Below are positions 9,423-64,000 of a stretch of 64,000 nt of DNA, one piece after another. Within the stretch, counting starts at the first letter, position 1; each line of letters starts with the position of its first letter. The position numbers were made by a program, and so were the translations under genes. The stretch is taken from the NCBI GenBank assembly GCA_029706075.1, contig JAINUG010000193.1, forward strand, positions 370,001-434,000. Reading direction: 5' to 3'. The notes below the pieces were generated by a model. It had not been told where the DNA came from, did no database searches, and saw nothing but the letters and a program-made list of their open reading frames with translations. Source of the stretch: Aldrovandia affinis (taxonomy: Eukaryota; Chordata; Actinopteri; Notacanthiformes; Halosauridae).

Positions 9423-10334
9423 ACCTGGCATAGCTGGCCGGCTAACAGCTAGCTTGTTGACTGGCTGGCTGCGGCGCATCGAGTCAAACAAGGTGAAGAG
9501 CGGAGGTGCCTTCCTGGAACCACGGAACAATTCAGTGCAATAAAGTCACGGTTTGAAATACATAGATTCCCGTCACCACCGTCGCATTCAATTCGGATCT
9601 TTCTCCTTTTGCGTAGTCATATGATCCAATTCTTTAACTCGTAACCTTCTGCTGCTAGTTGCCACATGACAACCTAGCTTCATTCAAACATCCGCGACGC
9701 CCCCCCCTCCACCTCCTCCGTCAATGCCTATTAGCGGACTCTTTTAAGAATTTACCACCCAGGACAATGCGATTGGTGGTTACAACTGTCACTCAATTCT
9801 GTATGGTTCATTTTTTTCTACGTCAGATAGGTTGCTGACATCAGCGTTGTCTTTCTGTAGTGCGCGTTAGCTGACAAGTTGATTGTTGTTAAACAACAAA
9901 CAATGTGCAAGTACCCTCTCGAATACACTTGCATTAAATGATCACCCTCACGCCACCTGGTTTAAAACAATATCATTACAAACAAAATGATTTAATATAA
10001 TTACAATTAAAACCCACCTATTCACAAAGATAGACTCAGTCGGACAGGCATGCTTTAGTGTTTTCAAAGAAGCTTGCTGTTTATAAATTTTAGCAATGTA
10101 TTTCATATGCGCAATTAAAACAAATTCGAGAACATTCAATTATGAGTTCCTGATGATACAGTCACATATTTTACTGTTAAGCCAGTACAGGGCTGTGTAG
10201 ATTCTTGTTGGAAATGAAACAACATGTTCAACATTTAGCAAAAAACTGCACAACAAAATATTGCATTCTATCTAAATTAATTTAGTGACAATAGAGACTT
10301 ACAGGCATATGCAGGTATATATACATACATATGT
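9423..10334. other. intergenic, nothing recognised
   Basis: No reading frame, repeat family or RNA gene that I can support. It is AT-rich after about 9900. Confidence 0.4.
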
Positions 10335-10490
10335 ATATGCCACTTAGCAGTTGCTTTTATCCAAAGCGACTTACACTAGTGAATGCATACATTTTACAAT
10401 ATATGTGGTCCCAATGGGAATCGAACCCGCAACCTAAGTGTTGTTAACGCCATGCTCTACCTACTGAGCCACACAGAATCACATATACAC
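10335..10490 (-). mobile_element. SINE family C copy, seed of the adjacent 39-bp minisatellite
   Basis: Read on the minus strand it has an A-box-like GGCTCAGTAGGTAGAGC, a B box GGTTCGATTCC, and an L2-like tail TAAGTCGCTTTGGATAAAAG ending GCCACTTAG-like. The same family occurs at 26938-27075 and 55928-56080. The head runs directly into the tandem array at 10490. Confidence 0.75.
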
Positions 10491-11067
10491 CACCTCTACC
10501 TACTGAGACACACAGAACCACATATACACCACCTCTACCTACTGAGACACACAGAACCACATATACACCACCTCTACCTACTGAGACACACAGAACCACA
10601 TATACACCACCTTTACCTACTGAGACACACAGAACCACATATACACCACCTCTACCTACTGAGACACACAGAACCACATATACACCACCTCTACCTACTG
10701 AGACACACATAACCACATATACACCACCTTCACCTACTGAGACACACAGAACCACATATACACCACCTCTACCTACTGAGACACACAGAACCACATATAC
10801 ACCACCTCTACCTACTGAGACACACAGAACCACATATACACCACCTCTACCTACTGAGACACACAGAACCACATATACACCACCTCTACCTACTGAGCCA
10901 CACAGAACCACATATACACCACCTCTACCTACTGAGACACACAGAACCACATATACACCACCTCTACCTACTGAGCCACACAGAAACACATATACACCAC
11001 CTCTACCTACTGAGACACACAGAACCACATATACACCACCTCTACCTACTGAGACACACAGAACCAC
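10490..11067. repeat. 39-bp minisatellite built on a SINE head (about 15 units)
   Basis: Units read CCTACTGAGACACACAGAA plus CCACATATACACCACCTCTA. On the minus strand each unit contains TGTGTCTCAGTAGGTAGAG, the A-box part of the neighbouring SINE, without its B box. Because 39 is a multiple of three, the array reads as a false 13-residue repeat protein. Confidence 0.9.
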
Positions 11068-11109
11068 AGGTAGGTTTTCTGAATTGGGTGTCTGGTTTCA
11101 TATAAAACA

Positions 11110-17287: not shown

Positions 17288-20200
17288 CTTCCAAACACAG
17301 GCACGCACAGCGTGAGAACACAGGCACGCACAGAGCACAGGCACGCACAGAGTGAGAGCACAGGCACACACAGAGAGAGAGCACAGGCACACACAGAGAG
17401 AGAACACAGAGAGAGAGCACAGGCACACACAGAGAGAGAGCACAGGCACGCACAGAGTGAGAACACAGAGAGAGAGCACAGGCACGCACAGCGTGAGAAC
17501 ACAGAGTGAGAACACAGGCACACACAGAGAGAGAACACAGAGTGAGAACACAGAGTGAGAACACAGGCACACACAGAGTGAGAACACAGAGTGAGAACAC
17601 AGGCACACACAGAGTGAGAACACAGAGTGAGAACACAGGCACGCACAGAGTGAGAACACAGAGTGAGAACACAGAGTGAGAACACAGGCACACACAGAGA
17701 GAGAGCACAGAGAGAGAGCACAGGCACACACAGAGAGAGAGCACAGGCACACACAGAGTGAGAACACAGAGTGAGAACACAGGCACACACAGAGAGAGAG
17801 CACAGGCACGCACAGAGCACAGGCACACACAGGCACGCACAGAGCACACACAGAGCACAGGCACACACAGGCACGCACAGAGTGAGAACACAGGCACACA
17901 CAGAGAGAGCACAGGCACACACAGAGTGAGAGCACAGGCACACACAGAGTGAGAACACAGAGTGAGAACACAGGCACGCACAGAGAGAGAGCACAGGCAC
18001 ACACAGAGAGAGAGCACAGGCACACACAGAGTGAGAACACAGAGTGAGAACACACAGAGAGAGAGCACAGGCACACACAGGCACACAGGCACACACAGAG
18101 TGAGAACACAGGCACACACAGTGATCACCCGTACTGGAAAACACAGGCATTCACACGCAGGTGCTTAACTCCCCTGTTTTACTGTTACATTAGTTACTCT
18201 AAATATTATGTTATTCTGCTGTGTTGGCTGCTCAAAATCCACTGTTGTTCTCTGGTTGGTTACTCTATACTATATATATCTTTTTTAAATTTGTTCCCAA
18301 TTTTTTTACATTTTTCTCCCAATTTGGTAGCCAATTATACCCTCTATTTATTTAGATTTACCCTCCCCACACGAGTCCACCGCTCGTCTCTACCAGGCAA
18401 GCTAATTCTCAGAGGGCAGTGAACTCCGCTTCCTTCGAGATGGAATTAGCCCACACCCACGTTCTGGAGACTCCCTTACGTGCTTCACGGCGGACCCGAG
18501 CCGGCTCACTCTCCCCCCTCCCCCTGGGGCGGACAGCCAAACGCCGCCCCCAATCAGGGCTGACGACCAGGGCTGGTCTGGTAGAGACGGGTTTAGAACC
18601 GCGTCCCTGACAGGCAGCGCACACTCGTATCGGACCAGCCAAGATACGAGTGCGTTAGACTGCTACGCTATCGGCCGCCCGTTTCAAACTCCTACTTTTG
18701 TGCTGTGCTGGTTGTGGAGAGCCACTGGCTCACATAAGAATGTAACAGCTGTGCTTCAACATCGTAGCACTCGCTAACTTGACCTGCCACAGTCTGTGAC
18801 AGATTGCTATTATCAGAACATTTAAATATTAATTGTTTCTCAAGGTGAAAATGTTATAACCTATAAAAAAAAAATACCTTTGAAGAGAAAGCATTAGCCA
18901 AGAAAATAAACAAAAACGAACTTCCAAAATGAAGAAAGTGCTTGCACTGTTTCCGCGGACTCATTGTCCCTACCGCTGGGTCTCATTGGAGGAGCCGCTG
19001 GCCCTGCTGCCTGCGCTCAGCGCCCTCTCTGCAGGGCTGCAGCCGCTGGCCGCGCTCTGGGTCCCTCTCGTCACAGCCTCCAGCTCCCTCTTCAGCTGCT
19101 CAACCTGAGAGGAGAGACCCCCCCTCTCCACCTCCAGGCTCTCCAGCTGCCCGGGGGAACACACAGAAGCGTGGGGTCGGAGGGGGTAGAGAGCATGGGA
19201 GGAGACTGAGAAAATGTGAAACATGCATCACAAATAAAACAGCCAGATAGAGGTTGTGATAGAGGAGGTTGTGATAGAGGAGGTTGTGATAGAGGAGGTT
19301 GTGAGAGGGCAGGTTGTGAGAGGGCAGGATGTGATAGAAGAGGTTGTGAGAGGGCAGGATGTGATAGAGGAGGTTGTGAGAGAGGGGCAGGATGTGAGAG
19401 GGCAGGTTGTGAGAGGGCAGGTTGTGAGAGGGCAGGTTGTGATAGAGCAGGTTGTGATAGAGGAGGTTGTGAGAGGGCAGGTTGTGAGAGGGCAGGTTGT
19501 GATAGAGGAGGTTGTGAGAGGGCAGGTTGTGATAGAGCAGGTTGTGAGAGGGCAGAGGAGGTTGTGAGAGGGCAGGTTGTGATAGGGCAGGTTGTGAGAG
19601 GGCAGGTTGTGAGAGAGGCAGGTTGTGAGAGGGCAGGTTGTGAGAGGGCAGGTTGTGAGAGGGCAGGTTGTGAGAGGGCAGGTTGTGAGAGAGCTCACCT
19701 TGCTCTTCAGCTCGTCGCGCTCTTTGCTGGTGCGCTGCAGGTCTCTGCGGATGGAGGTCACCTGTAGGGAGAGGCCTTCACCCTCCTGCCCCTCCGTCTC
19801 ACATCTCTCCTGCATCACGCTGCTGGCCTTAAGCTCACAGCTCAGCTGGTCCACCTGTTTCTTGTATCTGTCTCTCTCCTGATTGGCTGTCTCCACCTGC
19901 TCCCTGTACCTGTCTCTCTCCTGATTGGCTGTCTCCAACTGCTCCCTGTACCTGTCTCTCTCCTGATTGGCTGTCTCCACCTGCTCCCTGTAACTGTCTC
20001 TCTCCTGATTGGCTGTCTCCACCTGCTCTCTGTACTTGTCTCTCTCCTGATTGGCTGTCTCCACCTGCTCCCTGTAACTGTCTCTCTCCTGATTGGCTGT
20101 CTCCACCTGCTCTCTGTACTTGTCTCTCTCCTGATTGGCTGTCTCCACCTGCTCCCTGTACCTGTCTCTCTCCTGATTGGCTGTCTCCACCTGCTCTCTG

Positions 20201-23200
20201 TACTTGTCTCTCTCCTGTGCAGCCTCCTGCAGCATCTCCAGAAGCTCGTCCTGCTGCTTCTGCAGGACTCTGAGCTGTGCGTGCTCCCCTCCCTCTGGGT
20301 CCACGCCCCGCCCCGCCTCCCCTGCCCCCTGCCCCGCCTCCCCCTGCCCCGCCTCCCCCTGCCCCCCTGCCCCCTGCCCCGCGCTCAGGGGCTCAGCCTC
20401 CGCCACGCTCCCATCCCTCTGCCACACGTCTTCCCCCTCCAGCTTCATCTCCGTCTGGGTGCCAGCGGACACCGGCTGGCGCGCAGGAGACGCAGGCGAG
20501 GCAGCCATCGCCATGGTTTCGGTTTCCATGGACCCCTCCTCAAGGGCCCAATCACTGGCGAGCGTCATCAATGGCGGACACAGATCCAGAGAAGCCGCGT
20601 CATCCACGTCCTCCGATATGCTGTTTTGTCGACTGTTCGTTCTTGCCCTTTTTTTTAGCCCCCTTCCTTGCCCCTAAAGGAAGGAGGAGGCACGGTGATT
20701 CACTAAGGCTGGGATAACCACCGTTATGTTTCAGTGCATTTTTAGTTATAAAATATATATTTAAATGTTTCATTTGTCAATTTATGGCGGGCAGCACTTT
20801 TGCATTCAATTTCACATCAGCATCCAGGTGAAATAGGCCTATAATTTGGACACTGCTGCGAAAAGGTATGACAGGCATGCAAGCAAACTCACTCTCACAC
20901 ACATACACACACACACACACACACCACACACACACTCAGTCCCTTCTGTCACTGTTCACTGAAACCTCATTTCTGGACAATAAACAAATACAGGAAATAC
21001 AGGAAAAAAACCTACACAATTACCAAATGACCTAGTGTTTTCCATTCATAGTAGTGTTTTACCATTGAGCACACGTTGGAGATGACAGGCAAGCCTTGGG
21101 AGGAATTGGTTCCTGCGAACAGAAAGATAACCCAGGTTCATATGATCTACCCTCCTCTGTGTGTGTATCAGTCTTGAACATTCAAAGTGTTTTCCATTTT
21201 TGTTTTACAAGCACATTAACATTGTTTTGAAATATGCATTAGTTGTGTATCATTTGAACACAAAATACCATTTTGAGAAGATAACATTGTTTTGAATGCA
21301 TAGTTACATTTTGCAGGAGATTTGTGGAGTTTTGCCTTTTGTGTGTGTGTTTTGGGATTTGTGTGTAGAGTTCTGAGAATATGAGGTATGCTTTCAGAAA
21401 ACGTGTGTAAACAATTGAGAAAAACTGTAATACTGCATTTTGTAATATGTATGTTTCTTGATCACTTACACACTATCACTGGGCCTATTAACTAAACATC
21501 CCAAACCAAGCCATCTACCAAAAGACAGACCCATTTCCCAAAACTATAAACACTATTCCCCCCATGTATTTTCACACATGATTCAGATTTGTTGAACTTT
21601 TGGGAAAAAACACAAATCACTTCATATATCACTGGCTGCACCATGTGCTCATCTAGAAAGCACTGGCATTCAATATCATTAACTCAAGTGATCACAACTT
21701 GAACCCAAGGAGGAAACACTAAGAGTCAAAATTGTTCACACACCAATCAGAACCTCAGGATTGATAGACAGATAAAAGGCCCATGGGTCAGTTCACTTGT
21801 TTTGGAACAATGGATCTACAAAGACCTGAAGGTAGAGGAAGAGGATGGTGCAAGTATGGTTTTTCATACTGTATCAAGTATTTGAGTACAGTTATAAGAA
21901 CATAAGAACATAAGAATACATAATGATGAGAACGGGCCGTTCGGCCCATCTTGGCTCATCATGTCCTAATCTAAAGAGCAGTATATACTGTAGTACAGGC
22001 AGAGATGGGCAGTATTTCTGTTACTTGTATTTCAAATACGTATTTCAATTACTTTTGAGTATTTTGTCATTTGTATTTGACAGGGCTGAAAAAATTCAAA
22101 TGTAATTTGTAACAAGATACTTTAGGGTGGAGTAATTTTGTATTTTCAAAATACTCAAAATACTTTATCCATGATTCAAAGAACATAAAAAAAGAACAAC
22201 AGTACACTTAGACACCCCCACACAGTGATTTTTAGACCCGCTCTCTGTCGGTTGGACAAGGTGAATGCGTTTTCTAAGTGGCGTTTTGAGAAAACGTGAC
22301 GTGAAAAGTTGGAAAATACGATTTCTCAAAACGCCACTTTGTGACTCCAGAAACACTAGCTAGCATGTACAATTCATGCTGATTTGTTTGTAAGTTTGTA
22401 CTGTACTATTTTCAGTATTTTTCTTTTATATACAAATAGCATCAAAGATAGGAAATTGGTTGTCAATAGCCAAAACAATCAAAATGGAGGGAGTAATTTG
22501 GGCAAACTAATTAGGAGATGCTAAAGATGTGATTGTGCCTCTAACACTTAACACACGGCGATAGCCTATGTAATTGTGTTTTTTTGCTCATATTCATAGA
22601 GAAAGGCAGCCACCTATTCATATGTTGGCCTACGATAGCCAATTGGAGACAAGTTTTTTTCCCTGTATTTTAAAAATACAAAATACATGTATTTTATCTG
22701 ATACATTTTCTGGCACCAGTATTTTGTATTTTATCTGATACATTTATTTGAGGGGTATTTTGTATTTTGTAACAAGATACATTTTGATGTATCTTTGCCC
22801 ATCTCTGAGTACAGGCTATATGATGGCCTACTTTTGTAGGCTTGTTTAGATATTACAGTTGAGGCTTGCCAAGGGTGGATAAGGCATGCAAGGGTTTTTC
22901 TCCCCCGCTGCCTGGCTAGGGCTAATATTGCCTGTGATGTTGATGAGAATCTCTGGCCTGACCCAGACCAGAGACGGGATGCTGAGGCAGAATAAATTAG
23001 ATTTCTTTCTTTATGTACAAACAGTTTTTTTTTGCATTGGTTTATATTGGTAAATACATGGAAATTATTTTACTGTATTCTACGTTCTTTATGTATCAGT
23101 TGCATATTTTTACAGTACATTTACTTTTTCACGCAATTTCAGTTTATTTTACTACAGTACATTGAGGAATTAAAAATTGTGCAAATGTATACATGTGTTG

Positions 23201-24383: not shown

Positions 24384-27300
24384 CACATGTGCACACACAC
24401 ACACATACACACGCACACACACACACACACGCACGCACGCACGCACGCACGCACACGTGCACACACCCCACCTTCTGCTGCTGTTTCCTGTTCTTCTCCC
24501 TGCAGAAAACAGAAAATGTGTTTCAATGTGTTTCAAATATTGGGAACTTAGGGGCCTTGGGTGGCGTAACGGTCTAAGCATTCGCTCGGGAATGCAAGTT
24601 GCCTATCGCAGGATTGCAGGATTGCAGGATTGCAGTTCGAAACCTGTCTCTACCAGACCAGCCCTGGCCGGGAGCCCCGATCAGGGGGTGGCGATTGGCT
24701 GTCCACCCCAGGGGGAGGAGTTGCACACACACCTTGTTCGGCACTGCGTGAGTCGAAGGAGGTGACATAATGATACGAGAATCTTACTGCTGTTTGTAGG
24801 TCTTCTGATAGGGCTGCTCGTCCTCGGAGTCCTCCCGCTCCTCCTCTACTTGGCAGGACCTGCAGAGACAAAACTACTGAATACAGGAATGCACAAAGCA
24901 ACAGGGCCAGGAAGAACCCACTAACCAACTGAACAGGGCCTAAAAGAGCCCACTAACCAACTGAACAGGGCCTAGAAGAGCCCACTAACCAACTGAACAG
25001 GGCCTAGAAGAGCCCACTAACCAACTGAAGGACATAAAACCTGAAGCACTTCTAGTCGTGGGAAAGGGAGAGTGAGATCTGCAGTCCCTCCTACGGGGTG
25101 GGTAATGGGCGATTATGTAATATTATGTAATATAAAGGGATGACACCTGCACTGTGGACAGGGGCGGGGGCACTGGGTATCACCTGTACTGGGGACAGAG
25201 GGGGGGCACTGGGTATCACCTGTACTGGGGACAGAGGGGGGGCACTGGGTATCACCTGTACTGGGGACAGAGGGGGGCACTGGGTATCACCTGTACTGGG
25301 GACAGAGGGGGGCACTGGATATCACCTGTACTGGGGACAGAGGGGGGGCACTGGGTATCACCTGTACTGGGGACAGAGGGGGCACTGGGTATCACCTGTA
25401 CTGGGGACAGAGGGGGGGGCACTGGGTATCACCTGTACTGGGGACAGAGGGGGCACTGGGTATCACCTGTACTGGGGACAGAGGGGGGGGGCACTGGGTA
25501 TCACCTGTACTGGGGACAGAGGGGGGCACTGGGTATCACCTGTACTGGGGACAGAGGGGGGGCACTGGGTATCACCTGTACTGGGGACAGAGGGGGCACT
25601 GGGTATCACCTGTACTGGGGACAGAGGGGGGCACTGGGTATCACCTGTACTGGGGACAGAGGGGGGGGGGCACTGGGTATCACCTGTACTGGGGACAGAG
25701 GGGGGGGTATCACCACTGGGTATCACCTGTACTGGGGACAGAGGGGGGGGGGGCACTGGGTATCACCTGTACTGGGGACAGAGGGGGGCACTGGGTATCA
25801 CCTGTACTGGGGATCGGGGTTCAGGTGGCAGAACCACTCTTCGGGAAGCTTCTTAGAGTCAATTCCATCTGGCAGCTTCCTCCACTTCTGGCAGTTGTCA
25901 CACTTGACCCAGTTCTGATCCGGAGTCTTCCTGGAGCCAGAGATATATATACATACATGTGCATACAGTGGCGATTTTACCGTGGGTGCAGGGGGTGCAT
26001 TTTCAAATCAATGTCAAAAAACATGATTTCTGCCCATTGTAATATGGGCCCCTGTTTTAAACCCCTAAAATCGCCACTGTGTGTATAGATAGTACACACG
26101 TTTATCGGTATGATGATGAGGACATGGGTTTGTAACCGGATTTGTAACCGGATGGTGGCGTGTTTGAATCTTGGGCACTTCCGTTACACCACTAAGCAAA
26201 GTACAGTGCCCGAATTCTTTTTTTGTAATACATTTATTTCAGATTTTTTTCTGTTTTTCTCCCAATTTGTTAGCCTATTACACCCTCTATTTATTTAGAT
26301 TTGTCCTCCCCACACGAGTCCGCCGCTCGTCTCTATGAGGCAAGCTAATTCTCAGAGGGCAGTGAACTCTGCTTCCTTCGAGATGGAATTCGCCCACCCA
26401 CGTTCTGGAGACTCCCTTACGTGCTTCACGGCGGACCCGAGCCGGCTCACCTCCCCCCTTCCCCTGGGACGGACAGCCAAACGTCGCCCCCGATCGGGGC
26501 TGATGACCAGGGCCGGTCTGGTAGAGACGGGTTTAGAACCGCGTCCCTGACAGGCAGCGCACACCGTATCAGACCAGCCAAGATACAGTGCGTTAGACCG
26601 CTACGCTATCCGCCGGCCCCTGTGCCTGAATTCTGAAACCCTTAAACGCCTAATTAAATGTGCATGAATGGGTAATGTGTACAATGCAACGTTTGCCTGC
26701 GAATATTTCCGCGGGATAAGATATAGCCCAGCACACAGAGGACACACTGTATGACTACTCACTCAATATCCTCCACTGGCACGGTGCAGTCCTTCTTTCT
26801 AAAGTCCCTCTCCTTCCAGTACTCTTCCAGTTTCACCCCCAGGGTGTATTTTATCTTCCTGGAGACAAAGATTAACCACATTTGTCTGAACATTCAAAAG
26901 ACCAGAAAGGTGACCTTGCTACAATATATATATATATATATGCCATTTAGCAGATTATCCAAAGCAATTTACAGTAGTGAATTCATACATTTTTTTCAGT
27001 ATACAGTATGTGGTTCCAATGGGAATCGAACCCACAACCTAAGCATTGTCAGCGCCATACTCTACCTACTGAGACACACAGAACCACATATACACCACCT
27101 CTACCTACTGAGACACACAGAACCACATATACACCACCTCTACCTACTGAGCCACACAGAACCACACATATACACCACCTCTACCTACTGAGACACACAG
27201 AACCACATATACACCACCTCTACCTACTGAGACACACAGAACAGAACCACATATACACCTCCTCTACCTACTGAGACACACAGAACCACATATACACCAC

Positions 27301-30300
27301 ATATACACCACCTCTACCTACTGAGACACACAGAACCACATATACACCACCTACCTACTGAGACACACAGAACACTCTCTACCTACTGAGACACACAGAA
27401 CCACATATACACCACTACCTACTGAGACACACAGAACCACATATACACCACCTCTACCTACTGACCTCTACTACTGAGCCACACAGAACCACATATACAC
27501 CACCACTCTACCTACTCTACCTACTGAGACACACAGAACCACATATACACCACCTCTACCTACTGAGACACACACTGAGCCACACAGAACCACATATACA
27601 CCACCTCTACCTACTGAGACACACAGAACCACATATACACACACAGAACCACATATACACCACCTCTACCTACTGAGACACACAGAACCACATATACACC
27701 ACCTCTACCTACTGAGACACACAGAACCACATATACACCACCTCTACCTACACATATACACCACCTCTACCTACTGAGACACACAGAACCACATATACAC
27801 CACTACCTACTGAGAGACACAGAACCACATATACACCACCTCTGACCTACACACAGAACCACATATACACCACCTCTACCTACTGAGCCACACAGAACAA
27901 CATATACACCACCTCTACCTACTGAGACACACAGAACCACATATACACCACCTCTACCTACTGAGACACACAGAACCACATATACACCACCTCTACCTAC
28001 TGAGACACACAGAACCACATATACACCACCTCTACCTACTGAGACACACAGAACCACATATACACCACCTCTACCTACTGAGACACACAGAACCACATAT
28101 ACACCACCTCTACCTACTGAGACACACAGAACCACATATACACCACCTCTACCTACTGAGACACACAGAGCCACATATACACCACCTCCACCTACTGAGA
28201 CACACAGAGCCACATATACACCACTTCTACCTACTGCTCTACCTACTGAGACACACAGAACCACATAAAAATGTACATGAAAAAGTTCACGGTGGAAACA
28301 AAGGGGATTAAGTTGTGGTGGATGTTTATTTTTGCTTATTTATTTTTTATTAGGTCATCTAAACGGAGTGGGGGGGGGGACTAAGGACTGTGGGGAGGCT
28401 GTTTTATCAATGCCCCTTGGCCTAGTGGTGTTCTGGTGATAGTGACATTGTTTCACCAGCTTGAAGATTTCGCCCTGGTCCGAAATACATAACTTGTGGT
28501 CATAATGTGGTCCTGAAAAAAAAAATCATGATATTTTATAATAAATATAATATAATATATATAATATCCATACCGACATCATTGTTTTCACTCATTGTGG
28601 CACATCTAGTCTGAGCCATCTACAGAGTCGCAGTACAGACAAGTCAGGGTCTGATTACCTGTACTCCTCCGTGTCATCAAAGTCCTGCTTGTCGTGCGTT
28701 GGTTTGAGGAAGTCACACTGATAATGCCGATGATTCCCACACCCTTGGCCTGTTCACAAACAGAGGAGTGATAGAAAAACTTCTAAAAAAACGTTAAAAA
28801 ACTGCTGCGGCATCAACTGAACCACCAGCGCTAAAAATGCGCTACAGTTTCCCAAACCTATCAATAAAGTTTTAGATCTCTCTCACCCTCTGCTGGAAGC
28901 CGACGCGCTCGTATGCCCGTATTAGACGGTTTTTGTGGTACATCATCACACCGTAATGGTCCTTGTTTATTGGGTTGTACCCAAAGGTTATGCAGAGTCC
29001 CTTTTTCTGAAGAAAGAGTTCAGGACAACAAAACCGAAAGACGGAAAGACATATTGGAGGCCCAAAGAAAAGGGGTTATTTGACTTACTCTGCTTACCTG
29101 CATCTCTCTAAAGGGGAGTCAGTCTGTATGTGAGACATGACAAAGCCAACTATTAAACGCCCAGCTTATAACATGTCACACATATCACTCAAATCCAACC
29201 TGTTCATTATTCCGTGGTTTTGGCGACAAGTCTAGAATATTGGGAGTGCAATACATTCCCAAACGGACTTTGCTTGCTGTTCTGTGAGGTTGTAAATACT
29301 GAAATGTAGTGCGGGATAACTGACTGAAATGTAGTGCGGGATAACTGACTGAAATGTAGTGCGGGATAACTGACTGAAATGCTGCATGATTGAGAATTGG
29401 TTTCCCAGGATTGTTGAGAGACTGTACACGATGGTAACTCCTACTATTTAGTGCTTCGGTGTGTTACTCGTGAAATGCTCTGCACACAAAAAAAAATGGA
29501 CAAATGTAGAAACCTATCCAGTTTTTCACATTACATTACAAGCATTTTAGCAGACACTCTTATCCAGAGCGACTTACACAGTTTACATTTATTTACATAT
29601 AATCAATTTATACAGCTGGATATTTTTACTGAAGCAATTCAGGTTAAGTACCTTTAGCTCAAGGGTACAACGGCAGTGTCCCACCTGGGAATTGAACCAG
29701 CAACCCCAGTTCCCTAACCATTTTTAATTGTATAATTGCACAGGTAAGCTTACCATTCCCCTGCCAACATACACATCAAGAGTCACAATCACATGAGTTT
29801 TGCAGCAAACAACTGAGGGCACTCCAGGTTGAAGACTGAGTCACACAGCACTGTGGATGACTAACTGCTCTGGCACCCAGCGATGTAAACACTTGCACAA
29901 ATATATCGCAATCATTAGCTCCTTTTCCAGGAGAATGTCCTGATTGTCTAATTTACCTCGGTGTGCTAAATAAATCCCTGAAACACCCACCAAGACTGCC
30001 GTTTACAGAATGTTTTTTTGTTGGGGGAAAGAAGAATCACTGTTGCTAACGTATGACGTGGCCAAATTGGCCCTACGTCGACTACCAGAAGTGGCGCACA
30101 AGTGGATAAGCCTATGGCAGCCAGGGATTGGTACTTCATGATAGCCCAAAAATGATGTTTGTCAAAGAACAAATCACACTAAGGGCAAACGTGGATGATA
30201 TGTTTTGGGCTACTGCTCGAGGTCAACGTTGCACCATTCTTGTTGGCCCGTTGGGTGTCCAATAAGCAGACCTACCATTGGTCCACTGATAAAAACAACA

Positions 30301-31248
30301 TCAACGCCATCATTTGCCCAGCTGGGTCACACTTACTGGGTAGTTGTGCAACAGCATCATTACATACAAACAGCGTTCATTAAATACATTTTCCTGAACC
30401 TACCCTCGTTTCACAGGCAGAAATACCCACTGGGCACAGACAGCACCATGGCAACAACAGAAGGATACCAGGAATTTGGGCGTGTACCGGTCAATGTTGG
30501 TGTAGGCCAGACTTTTGGAGACCAGCTGAGTCCTCACCTTCTGTCCCCTGATGATGATCTGCATGCGAGGCCTCAGGTACAGAATGCTGCAGTACGCCTG
30601 AAACACAGCACAAACATTACAGCACACACATTACTGCAGAACGCCTGAAACACAGCACACACATTACTGCAGCACGCCTGAAACACAGCACACACATTAC
30701 TGCAGCACGCCTGAAACACAGCACACACATTACTGCAGCACGCCTGAAACACAGCACACACATTACTGCACAAACATTAACGCAGAACGCCTGAAACACA
30801 GCACACACATTACTGCAGCACGCCTGAAACACAGCACAAACATTACTGAATCAGTAAACAGTACGCCTGAATCCAAACACAGGGGGAGATAGAAAACCCT
30901 GACAAAGACTCATAAAGCCTGATATTCTGTCTGTGGCCTTTTGGGGCAGAAATACAGAAACAGAAATACTTCAGCATGCTCCTGTTCCAGAGGAGCTCCG
31001 GATGTGAACCCAGCATCTCCCTCCCGCCAGCCCTGGACCTGTCCACCCCCAGCAGTACTCACACACAGGGAGTAGGTACTTAGTGGGCCTCGATCCATGT
31101 TTGGGTCCGGCACATCGGCCAAGTCCATGCGCGGAATCCGAATGTCGTACCTGTCCGTCTCGAAATCGAATTCCGTCGGCTGTGTGGAGGTACTGGAGTG
31201 AGGGCAGACAGACAGACAGACAGACAGGGTTAACCGTTTTGAGACCAT

Positions 31249-47680: not shown

Positions 47681-64000
<16,320 letters not shown>

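Follow-up and report, generated by a model that had tools for sequence, protein, structure and literature searches.

Here we show that the 5' splice junction of the CW zinc-finger exon of a MORC3-family gene in Aldrovandia affinis has been copied in tandem within a minisatellite, which lays 17 extra donors beside the authentic one, and that use of any donor beyond the first would lead to the same immediate stop codon. We consider the array most likely to be a tolerated boundary-spanning minisatellite of the type named "mirages" in amphioxus, with splicing taking place at the first donor. By "the window" we mean the whole stretch of 64,000 nucleotides analysed, in which positions are counted from the first base; a caret marks a splice junction or its copy.

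The array-bearing gene is read from the minus strand, with placed exons running from 40793 to 17158. The window corresponds to C1035:370001-434000 of a 1.22-Gb assembly. When its exons were stitched together, they were matched best by the A. affinis protein AAFF_G00132360 (P0001), whose CW exon matches window positions 25929-25801 at 100%. A tandem neighbour, AAFF_G00132370 (P0025), extends from beyond 64000 to 47684; HATPase, Morc6_S5 and zf-CW were matched in both proteins using Pfam, and both tandem paralogues are MORC3-family proteins. The CW exon (25802..25930, minus strand; 129 nt, about exon 11, ending ...GATCCCCAGTACAG) was placed by spliced alignment of the annotated P0001 and by PDB and Pfam matches, MORC3 being the closest solved structure to its zinc finger (PDB, best E value 1.3e-20; Pfam zf-CW). 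The four conserved cysteines of the CW finger are zinc ligands; three of them are encoded in this exon, and the fourth (in RSC) comes from the next one (24788..24859, minus strand; about exon 12, starting GTCCTGCC; P0001 spliced alignment). Between the two lies an intron of 942 nt that starts GTGATACCC. Its authentic 5' splice site GT (25800..25801, minus strand) is in phase 2 (AG^G TGA), the last exon base being 25802 and the first intron base 25801, and in the annotation, as read from the spliced alignment, P0001 joins the CW exon to the next exon at this donor. The CW exon of the paralogue was placed, likewise by spliced alignment, at 62401..62529 (minus strand; end ...CCCCAGTTCAG). An apparent 1-nt frameshift was noted by eye in exon 9 of the first gene (28749-28659, minus strand), where P0001 is in another frame; it may be an assembly error or the mark of a decaying gene.

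The minisatellite over the CW junction (25144..25813, minus strand) comprises 18 steps of 34-43 bp with the common unit GTGATACCCAGTGC(n)TCTGTCCCCAGTACAG and a C-run of 5-11; Tandem Repeats Finder gave the same interval of 670 bases, with a period of 35 and 18.4 copies. Copied within it is the true junction, CCCCAGTACAG^GTGATACCC, in 17 extra copies, 16 of which are exact, as had been proposed in an earlier reading of the letters without database searches (hereafter the sequence-only reading), which described seventeen extra near-perfect donors beside this exon. The 20-base junction CCCCAGTACAGGTGATACCC occurs 18 times in the window (17 exact, one with one mismatch), on the minus strand only and between 25175 and 25812, corresponding to the authentic donor plus the 17 extra copies, and was absent from 100 dinucleotide-preserving shuffles. 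The first intron-like bases of the extra donors (25183..25766, minus strand) are 25766, 25726, 25683, 25644, 25609, 25575, 25539, 25504, 25466, 25432, 25395, 25361, 25325 (one mismatch), 25290, 25255, 25219, and 25183. At the exon-distal end of the array lies a further copy in decay, CCACAGTGCAG^GTGTCATCC (25133..25160, minus strand), in which the intron-like part begins at 25146. The exon stretch common to the units is 12 bases, TCCCCAGTACAG, followed by about the first 23 intron bases. The sequence-only reading was right that each unit joins the real exon end to the authentic intron start (12 exon bases and the GTGATA start are found in the units), and a check for units devoid of the last exon bases found these 12 bases in place; in detail, it had counted 11 exon bases, had placed the array at 25153..25930, of which 25814-25930 is exon, and had given stretches of about 34-40 nt, correct at the lower end, while the spacings reach 43 nt. 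C-run length, 5 to 11 where readable, is all that distinguishes 15 of the 18 units; the other three carry an insertion of about 8 bases, a substitution, and, in the distal one, decay. Such near-identical units with a decayed exon-distal end are as expected of minisatellite turnover. When a 91-base query of units was compared with the 1.22-Gb assembly, 8 matches were obtained among the best candidates scored, all within the CW array. A second minisatellite (24900..25029, minus strand; 32 bp x 4.1) occupies the same 942-nt intron, 40 nt upstream of the next exon.

Given that the junction is in phase 2 and the intron starts GTGA, read-through at every bypass donor gives AGG TGA, an arginine followed by a stop. 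Scripted translation confirmed that 18 of 18 bypass products (17 copies and the decayed one) stop right after the exon's last arginine, with 43 exon residues, although the extension is a multiple of three in 7 of the 17. The stop falls before the fourth CW cysteine, and Pfam zf-CW is covered over profile positions 1-39 of 47 without the next exon and 1-46 with it. The expectation that distal donors would mostly shift the frame after the CW finger consequently has to be replaced by an immediate stop inside the finger in all 18 cases. A graded frame switch is ruled out, since the position of the stop is common to all bypass donors, and only a choice between productive and unproductive products is possible. 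Among the 120 listed homologues, one predicted isoform from Paramormyrops kingsleyae (P0097) ends exactly at the junction arginine, and a grass carp protein (P0052) terminates at the junction codon, which there reads Ser, and so not by simple read-through. From these two annotated ends, truncation at the CW junction may be normal in teleosts.

Because conserved exon bases and the intron bases directly downstream stand together in the units, the unit arose across the exon-intron boundary. This origin, already proposed in the sequence-only reading, is upheld by the unit anatomy together with the exon end being conserved coding sequence: 109 of 111 pattern-matching homologues (120 tried, the best 120 of 1155) read DP-X-(F/Y)-R at the junction, a count in which the homologue end pattern itself favours such ends and which 9 of the 120 did not enter for failing that pattern. 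A genome search with the CW exon returned five matches, two in the window, one on C868 (L014), one on C58 (L015), and a weak one on C1602, in which the exon reads on past the junction point. L014 and L015 are array-free paralogues with the same junction (CCCCAGTTCAG^GTGAGGCCCCCCTTTGTCACCC and CCTCAGTACAG^GTGATCCCCAGCTCCCC, respectively). With the exon-derived tail of the unit included, the likeness of their intron starts to the unit was reached in 6 (L015) and 28 (L014) of 5000 shuffles. With the tail removed, likeness beyond +6 was reached in 67 or 264 (L015) and 254 or 124 (L014) of 5000 shuffles, and with the donor bases kept in 3 and 1 (L015) and 158 and 125 (L014), the paired counts differing by which sequence was shuffled. 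The intron starts of L014 and L015 were not alike (978 and 966 of 5000 shuffles). As the likeness drops without the exon-derived tail, it argues only modestly for the ancestral state of the intron half; birth across the boundary is unaffected, because it follows from unit anatomy. L015 repeats TACAG^GT, its GT at +28, and this short match is of a kind that could seed slippage.

The paralogue has a donor array of its own at the CW junction (62251..62400, minus strand). Here the junction CCCCAGTTCAG^GTGACGCGTG is followed by two extra copies reading GTTCAG^GTGACG(T/C)GTG across the boundary (GTGGTTCAG^GTGACG(T/C)GTG; first intron-like bases 62360 and 62304), and this array also reads AGG TGA. 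No kinship was detectable between its units and those of the first gene (1337 of 5000 shuffles; 1628 and 1573 once the exon-derived tail was taken off). Descent of both from one ancestral donor array was rejected, the intron starts being no more alike than chance, and the two CW donor arrays therefore look independent. Acceptors have been copied as well. In the first gene, the exon-7 acceptor TGTTTCAG^GCGTACTG (exon 30469..30597, minus strand) is preceded by seven near-copies TTTCAG^GCGTACTG, the outermost with ATTCAG (30598..30866, minus strand; first exon-like bases from 30644 to 30866, spaced mostly by 33 bp), and the exon-7 acceptor of the paralogue has two extra copies (array at L017, 2452-2553), the 33-bp unit being common to both paralogues. 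None of these three further arrays was noted in the sequence-only reading. Splicing to the acceptor copies would insert 33 or 66 nt in the paralogue, with the frame kept and open, and 47-269 nt in the first gene, in no case a multiple of three. By eye, the exon-7 DNA of both paralogues is very alike. The common 33-bp unit may reflect either shared ancestry or gene conversion.

Duplicated junctions were found at 4 of 74 tested (5.4%), comprising 50 in the window (24 donors and 26 acceptors), 12 of the paralogue upstream, 11 of L014, and one of L015. Left out of this count were, in the first gene, exon 1 and the donor of exon 4, whose positions were not fixed, and the annotated intron 20191-19827, which we read as a coding repeat; several second-gene junctions upstream of the window and one L014 acceptor whose string was not unique were also left out. 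For the exon-10 acceptor of the first gene the tested position was offset by 2 nt, and only one of the two extra copies in the paralogue donor array passed the 2-mismatch rule. By comparison, a near copy within 1.5 kb exists for 9.5% of complex 16-mers of the window (low-complexity 16-mers dropped, the junctions being unfiltered) and for 15.9% of all 16-mers, the values for complex 16-mers being 15.7% in the span of the first gene and 3.7% in that of the paralogue. Densities at seven other loci ranged from 0.8% to 26% (random-region stretches L019 and L020: 0.8% and 22%). Binomial tail probabilities for junction duplication were 0.86 to 0.998 (n = 49, with 50 window junctions listed). Enrichment of arrays at junctions is thus rejected, 4 of 74 not being above the local backgrounds, and no special force is needed. 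Given these rates, arrays at the same donor in both paralogues would arise by chance in about 4-10% of cases, which is suggestive only.

Several further repeats were observed in the window. A 42-bp coding minisatellite (19850-20217, minus strand; 8.8 copies) encodes a 14-residue coiled-coil-like repeat; in P0001 the greater part of it is treated as an intron (20191 to 19827), which is probably a mis-annotation, and the Anguilla homologue P0003 keeps similar repeats coding. A 15-bp minisatellite of 29 copies (19251-19691, minus strand) starts about 8 nt into the intron that follows the coiled-coil-exon donor AGCAAG^GTGAGC, whose GT is not copied. One 39-bp minisatellite is present at two places (10455-11068 and 27060-28236), near a UnaL2 LINE 3' element (10334-10387) at one and overlapping a tRNA-like match (27019-27076) at the other, and from these neighbours it may travel inside a transposable element.

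With a U1 duplex energy of -8.2 kcal/mol, the authentic CW donor is tied 10th-11th of 24 window donors of the two genes, and this middle rank rules out an unusually weak or strong donor. Its 11-base U1 site is identical in 16 of the 17 copies and differs at +7 in one (the copies not being energy-scored singly), and the decayed copy has an energy of -6.7 kcal/mol. In predicted accessibility the copies (0.24-0.36) bracket the authentic donor (0.33), with the decayed copy lower, at 0.14. Since the array donors are so similar to the authentic one in U1 site and predicted accessibility, the choice among them must rest on position and exon context. Among competing donors, SRSF1 is described as promoting intron-proximal and hnRNP A1 intron-distal ones (PMC5585400), so that the first donor would not win automatically. 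As judged from the DNA, it is nonetheless plausible that the first donor wins. Public muscle RNA reads of A. affinis (SRR5306085) and the transcript set GFJD00000000 are named in PMC5968573, a paper in which MORC is not mentioned.

Boundary-spanning minisatellites are already known, though rare, and the A. affinis CW array is a further case. In amphioxus, minisatellites spanning boundaries of Adh3 were named "mirages" and are also reported in globin genes; they are described at both 5' and 3' boundaries, vary in length between haplotypes, and, as RT-PCR suggested, leave regular splicing undisturbed (PMC3087553). Like these, the CW array has a unit comprising exon and intron of one boundary, and with the CW donor and exon-7 acceptor arrays both 5' and 3' boundaries are represented in both paralogues; the amphioxus cases (Adh3; BflGb6, BflGb9) are given as having steps of 10-72 or 150-160 bp, whereas A. 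affinis is a vertebrate with steps of 34-43 bp and 17 extra donors. A minisatellite at an exon end of the human IFI6 (6-16) gene is said to supply two downstream repeat units as donors and to yield three mRNAs (PMC4526556, citing Turri et al. 1995). In the CW array, too, each unit holds a donor (17 copies of CAG^GTGATA), but while the IFI6 repeat donors are reportedly used and encode isoforms, here downstream donors give no translatable isoform, 18 of 18 ending in Arg-stop. A VNTR of the human CBS gene is said to have been originally reported by Lievers et al. in 2001. This 31-bp repeat, c.1444_1467+7(16_21), joins the last exon bases to the first intron bases in 16-21 copies (PMC2630376, PMC1395315), and its architecture is nearly the same as that of the CW array, in which the unit likewise begins at the exon end and enters the intron; the CBS unit comprises 24 exon and 7 intron bases and is polymorphic, whereas that of A. 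affinis comprises 12 and about 23 and is taken from one assembly. In human segmentally duplicated genes, minisatellites with units averaging about 30 bp are reported at exon-intron boundaries, where they can alter splicing; they were sifted by transcript evidence and are described as forming novel introns, the likeness lying in minisatellites at boundaries of paralogues (PMC2812944). In the Rogers model of intron gain, as presented for ATP2A1 and a potato RdRp, tandem duplication of AGGT places splice signals at both ends (PMC4974935). The A. affinis unit also holds AG^GT, but the duplicated segment is not an exonic AGGT segment: it spans an existing junction, inside an existing intron. In literature searches on A. 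affinis and on subjects other than MORC, no report of such arrays in halosaurs or MORC genes came up; A. affinis appears once in PMC11600626, in relation to PRDM9.

The array would have begun with a tandem duplication of the last 12 CW-exon bases together with about the first 23 intron bases, the copies then presumably multiplying through slippage or unequal exchange until there were 18 steps, distinguished almost solely by C-run length. Splicing most likely takes place almost entirely at the exon-adjacent donor, the array leaving with the intron. Where an array donor was used, the computed Arg and TGA would end the protein inside the CW finger before the fourth cysteine, and the mRNA would be expected to undergo nonsense-mediated decay, such that the array would be tolerated rather than used, in a minisatellite-rich locus. 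Consistent with tolerance are the annotated protein, which uses the authentic donor, the lack of junction enrichment, and the RT-PCR analogy from amphioxus. Against it, the U1 match of the authentic donor is average, the donors are alike, and nothing in the donors themselves favours the first; furthermore, the downstream donors of IFI6 are reportedly used, P0097 and P0052 end at this junction, and an array also stands at this place in the paralogue. In a rival reading, the array donors would compete with the authentic one, copy number setting the wasted share of MORC3 transcripts and length variation acting as a brake on dosage. Every bypass would then give the same stop, whatever the copy or frame, from copies of which 16 of 17 keep the donor's U1 site at similar predicted accessibility; the tandem paralogue bears an array at this junction too, the Paramormyrops predicted isoform ends exactly there, and IFI6 indicates that repeat donors can be used (PMC4526556). 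We regard such a brake as unlikely, given that local minisatellite density would lead one to expect at least as many junction arrays, that the array-free paralogues L014 and L015 lack any such design, and that amphioxus mirages seem not to disturb splicing (PMC3087553). A brake of this kind, set by copy number through competing donors with the same stop, of which the tandem paralogue would in addition have evolved its own version, is slightly less likely still.

Three other explanations were judged improbable to differing degrees. The array, its copy number, or some of its bases could be products of assembly, given a single assembly, long error-prone C-runs, and an apparent exon-9 frameshift that may itself be an assembly error; we doubt this strongly, as the C-run lengths vary in irregular order, one unit has an insertion of about 8 bases, and related architecture is found at three further junctions. 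To the same low degree we would credit a dying gene whose splice sites are unconstrained and whose array is debris. The apparent exon-9 frameshift, with the annotated protein in another frame there, points in this direction, as does Morc6_S5, which was matched in two pieces, the better one covering profile positions 1-64 of 139. The other placed exons, however, keep open frames matching the annotated protein (the exon-4 donor not being fixed), and the paralogue, with a full Morc6_S5 (1-139), also has an array at the same donor. Least probable, and highly so, is a ladder neutral to splicing, in which units that open with GT, hold a C-rich tract and close with AG would let splicing into or out of them be mended by a second splice (recursive or re-splicing) that restores the junction. 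The common unit does start GTGATA and end in a C-run plus TCTGTCCCCAGTACAG, but another AG (CCCCAG^TACAG) lies 5 nt before the unit end and, being reached earlier, would leave an error of 5 nt, and an intron of only 942 nt needs no stepping.

The locus offers a natural experiment in 5' splice-site choice, having 18 near-identical and near-evenly spaced donors of which only the first gives the full protein, and a second, different row of donors at the same place in the tandem gene copy. From RNA reads of A. affinis one could learn how far donor choice is governed by position alone. Mirage-type boundary minisatellites are hereby recorded in a vertebrate, at donor and acceptor, in one gene pair.
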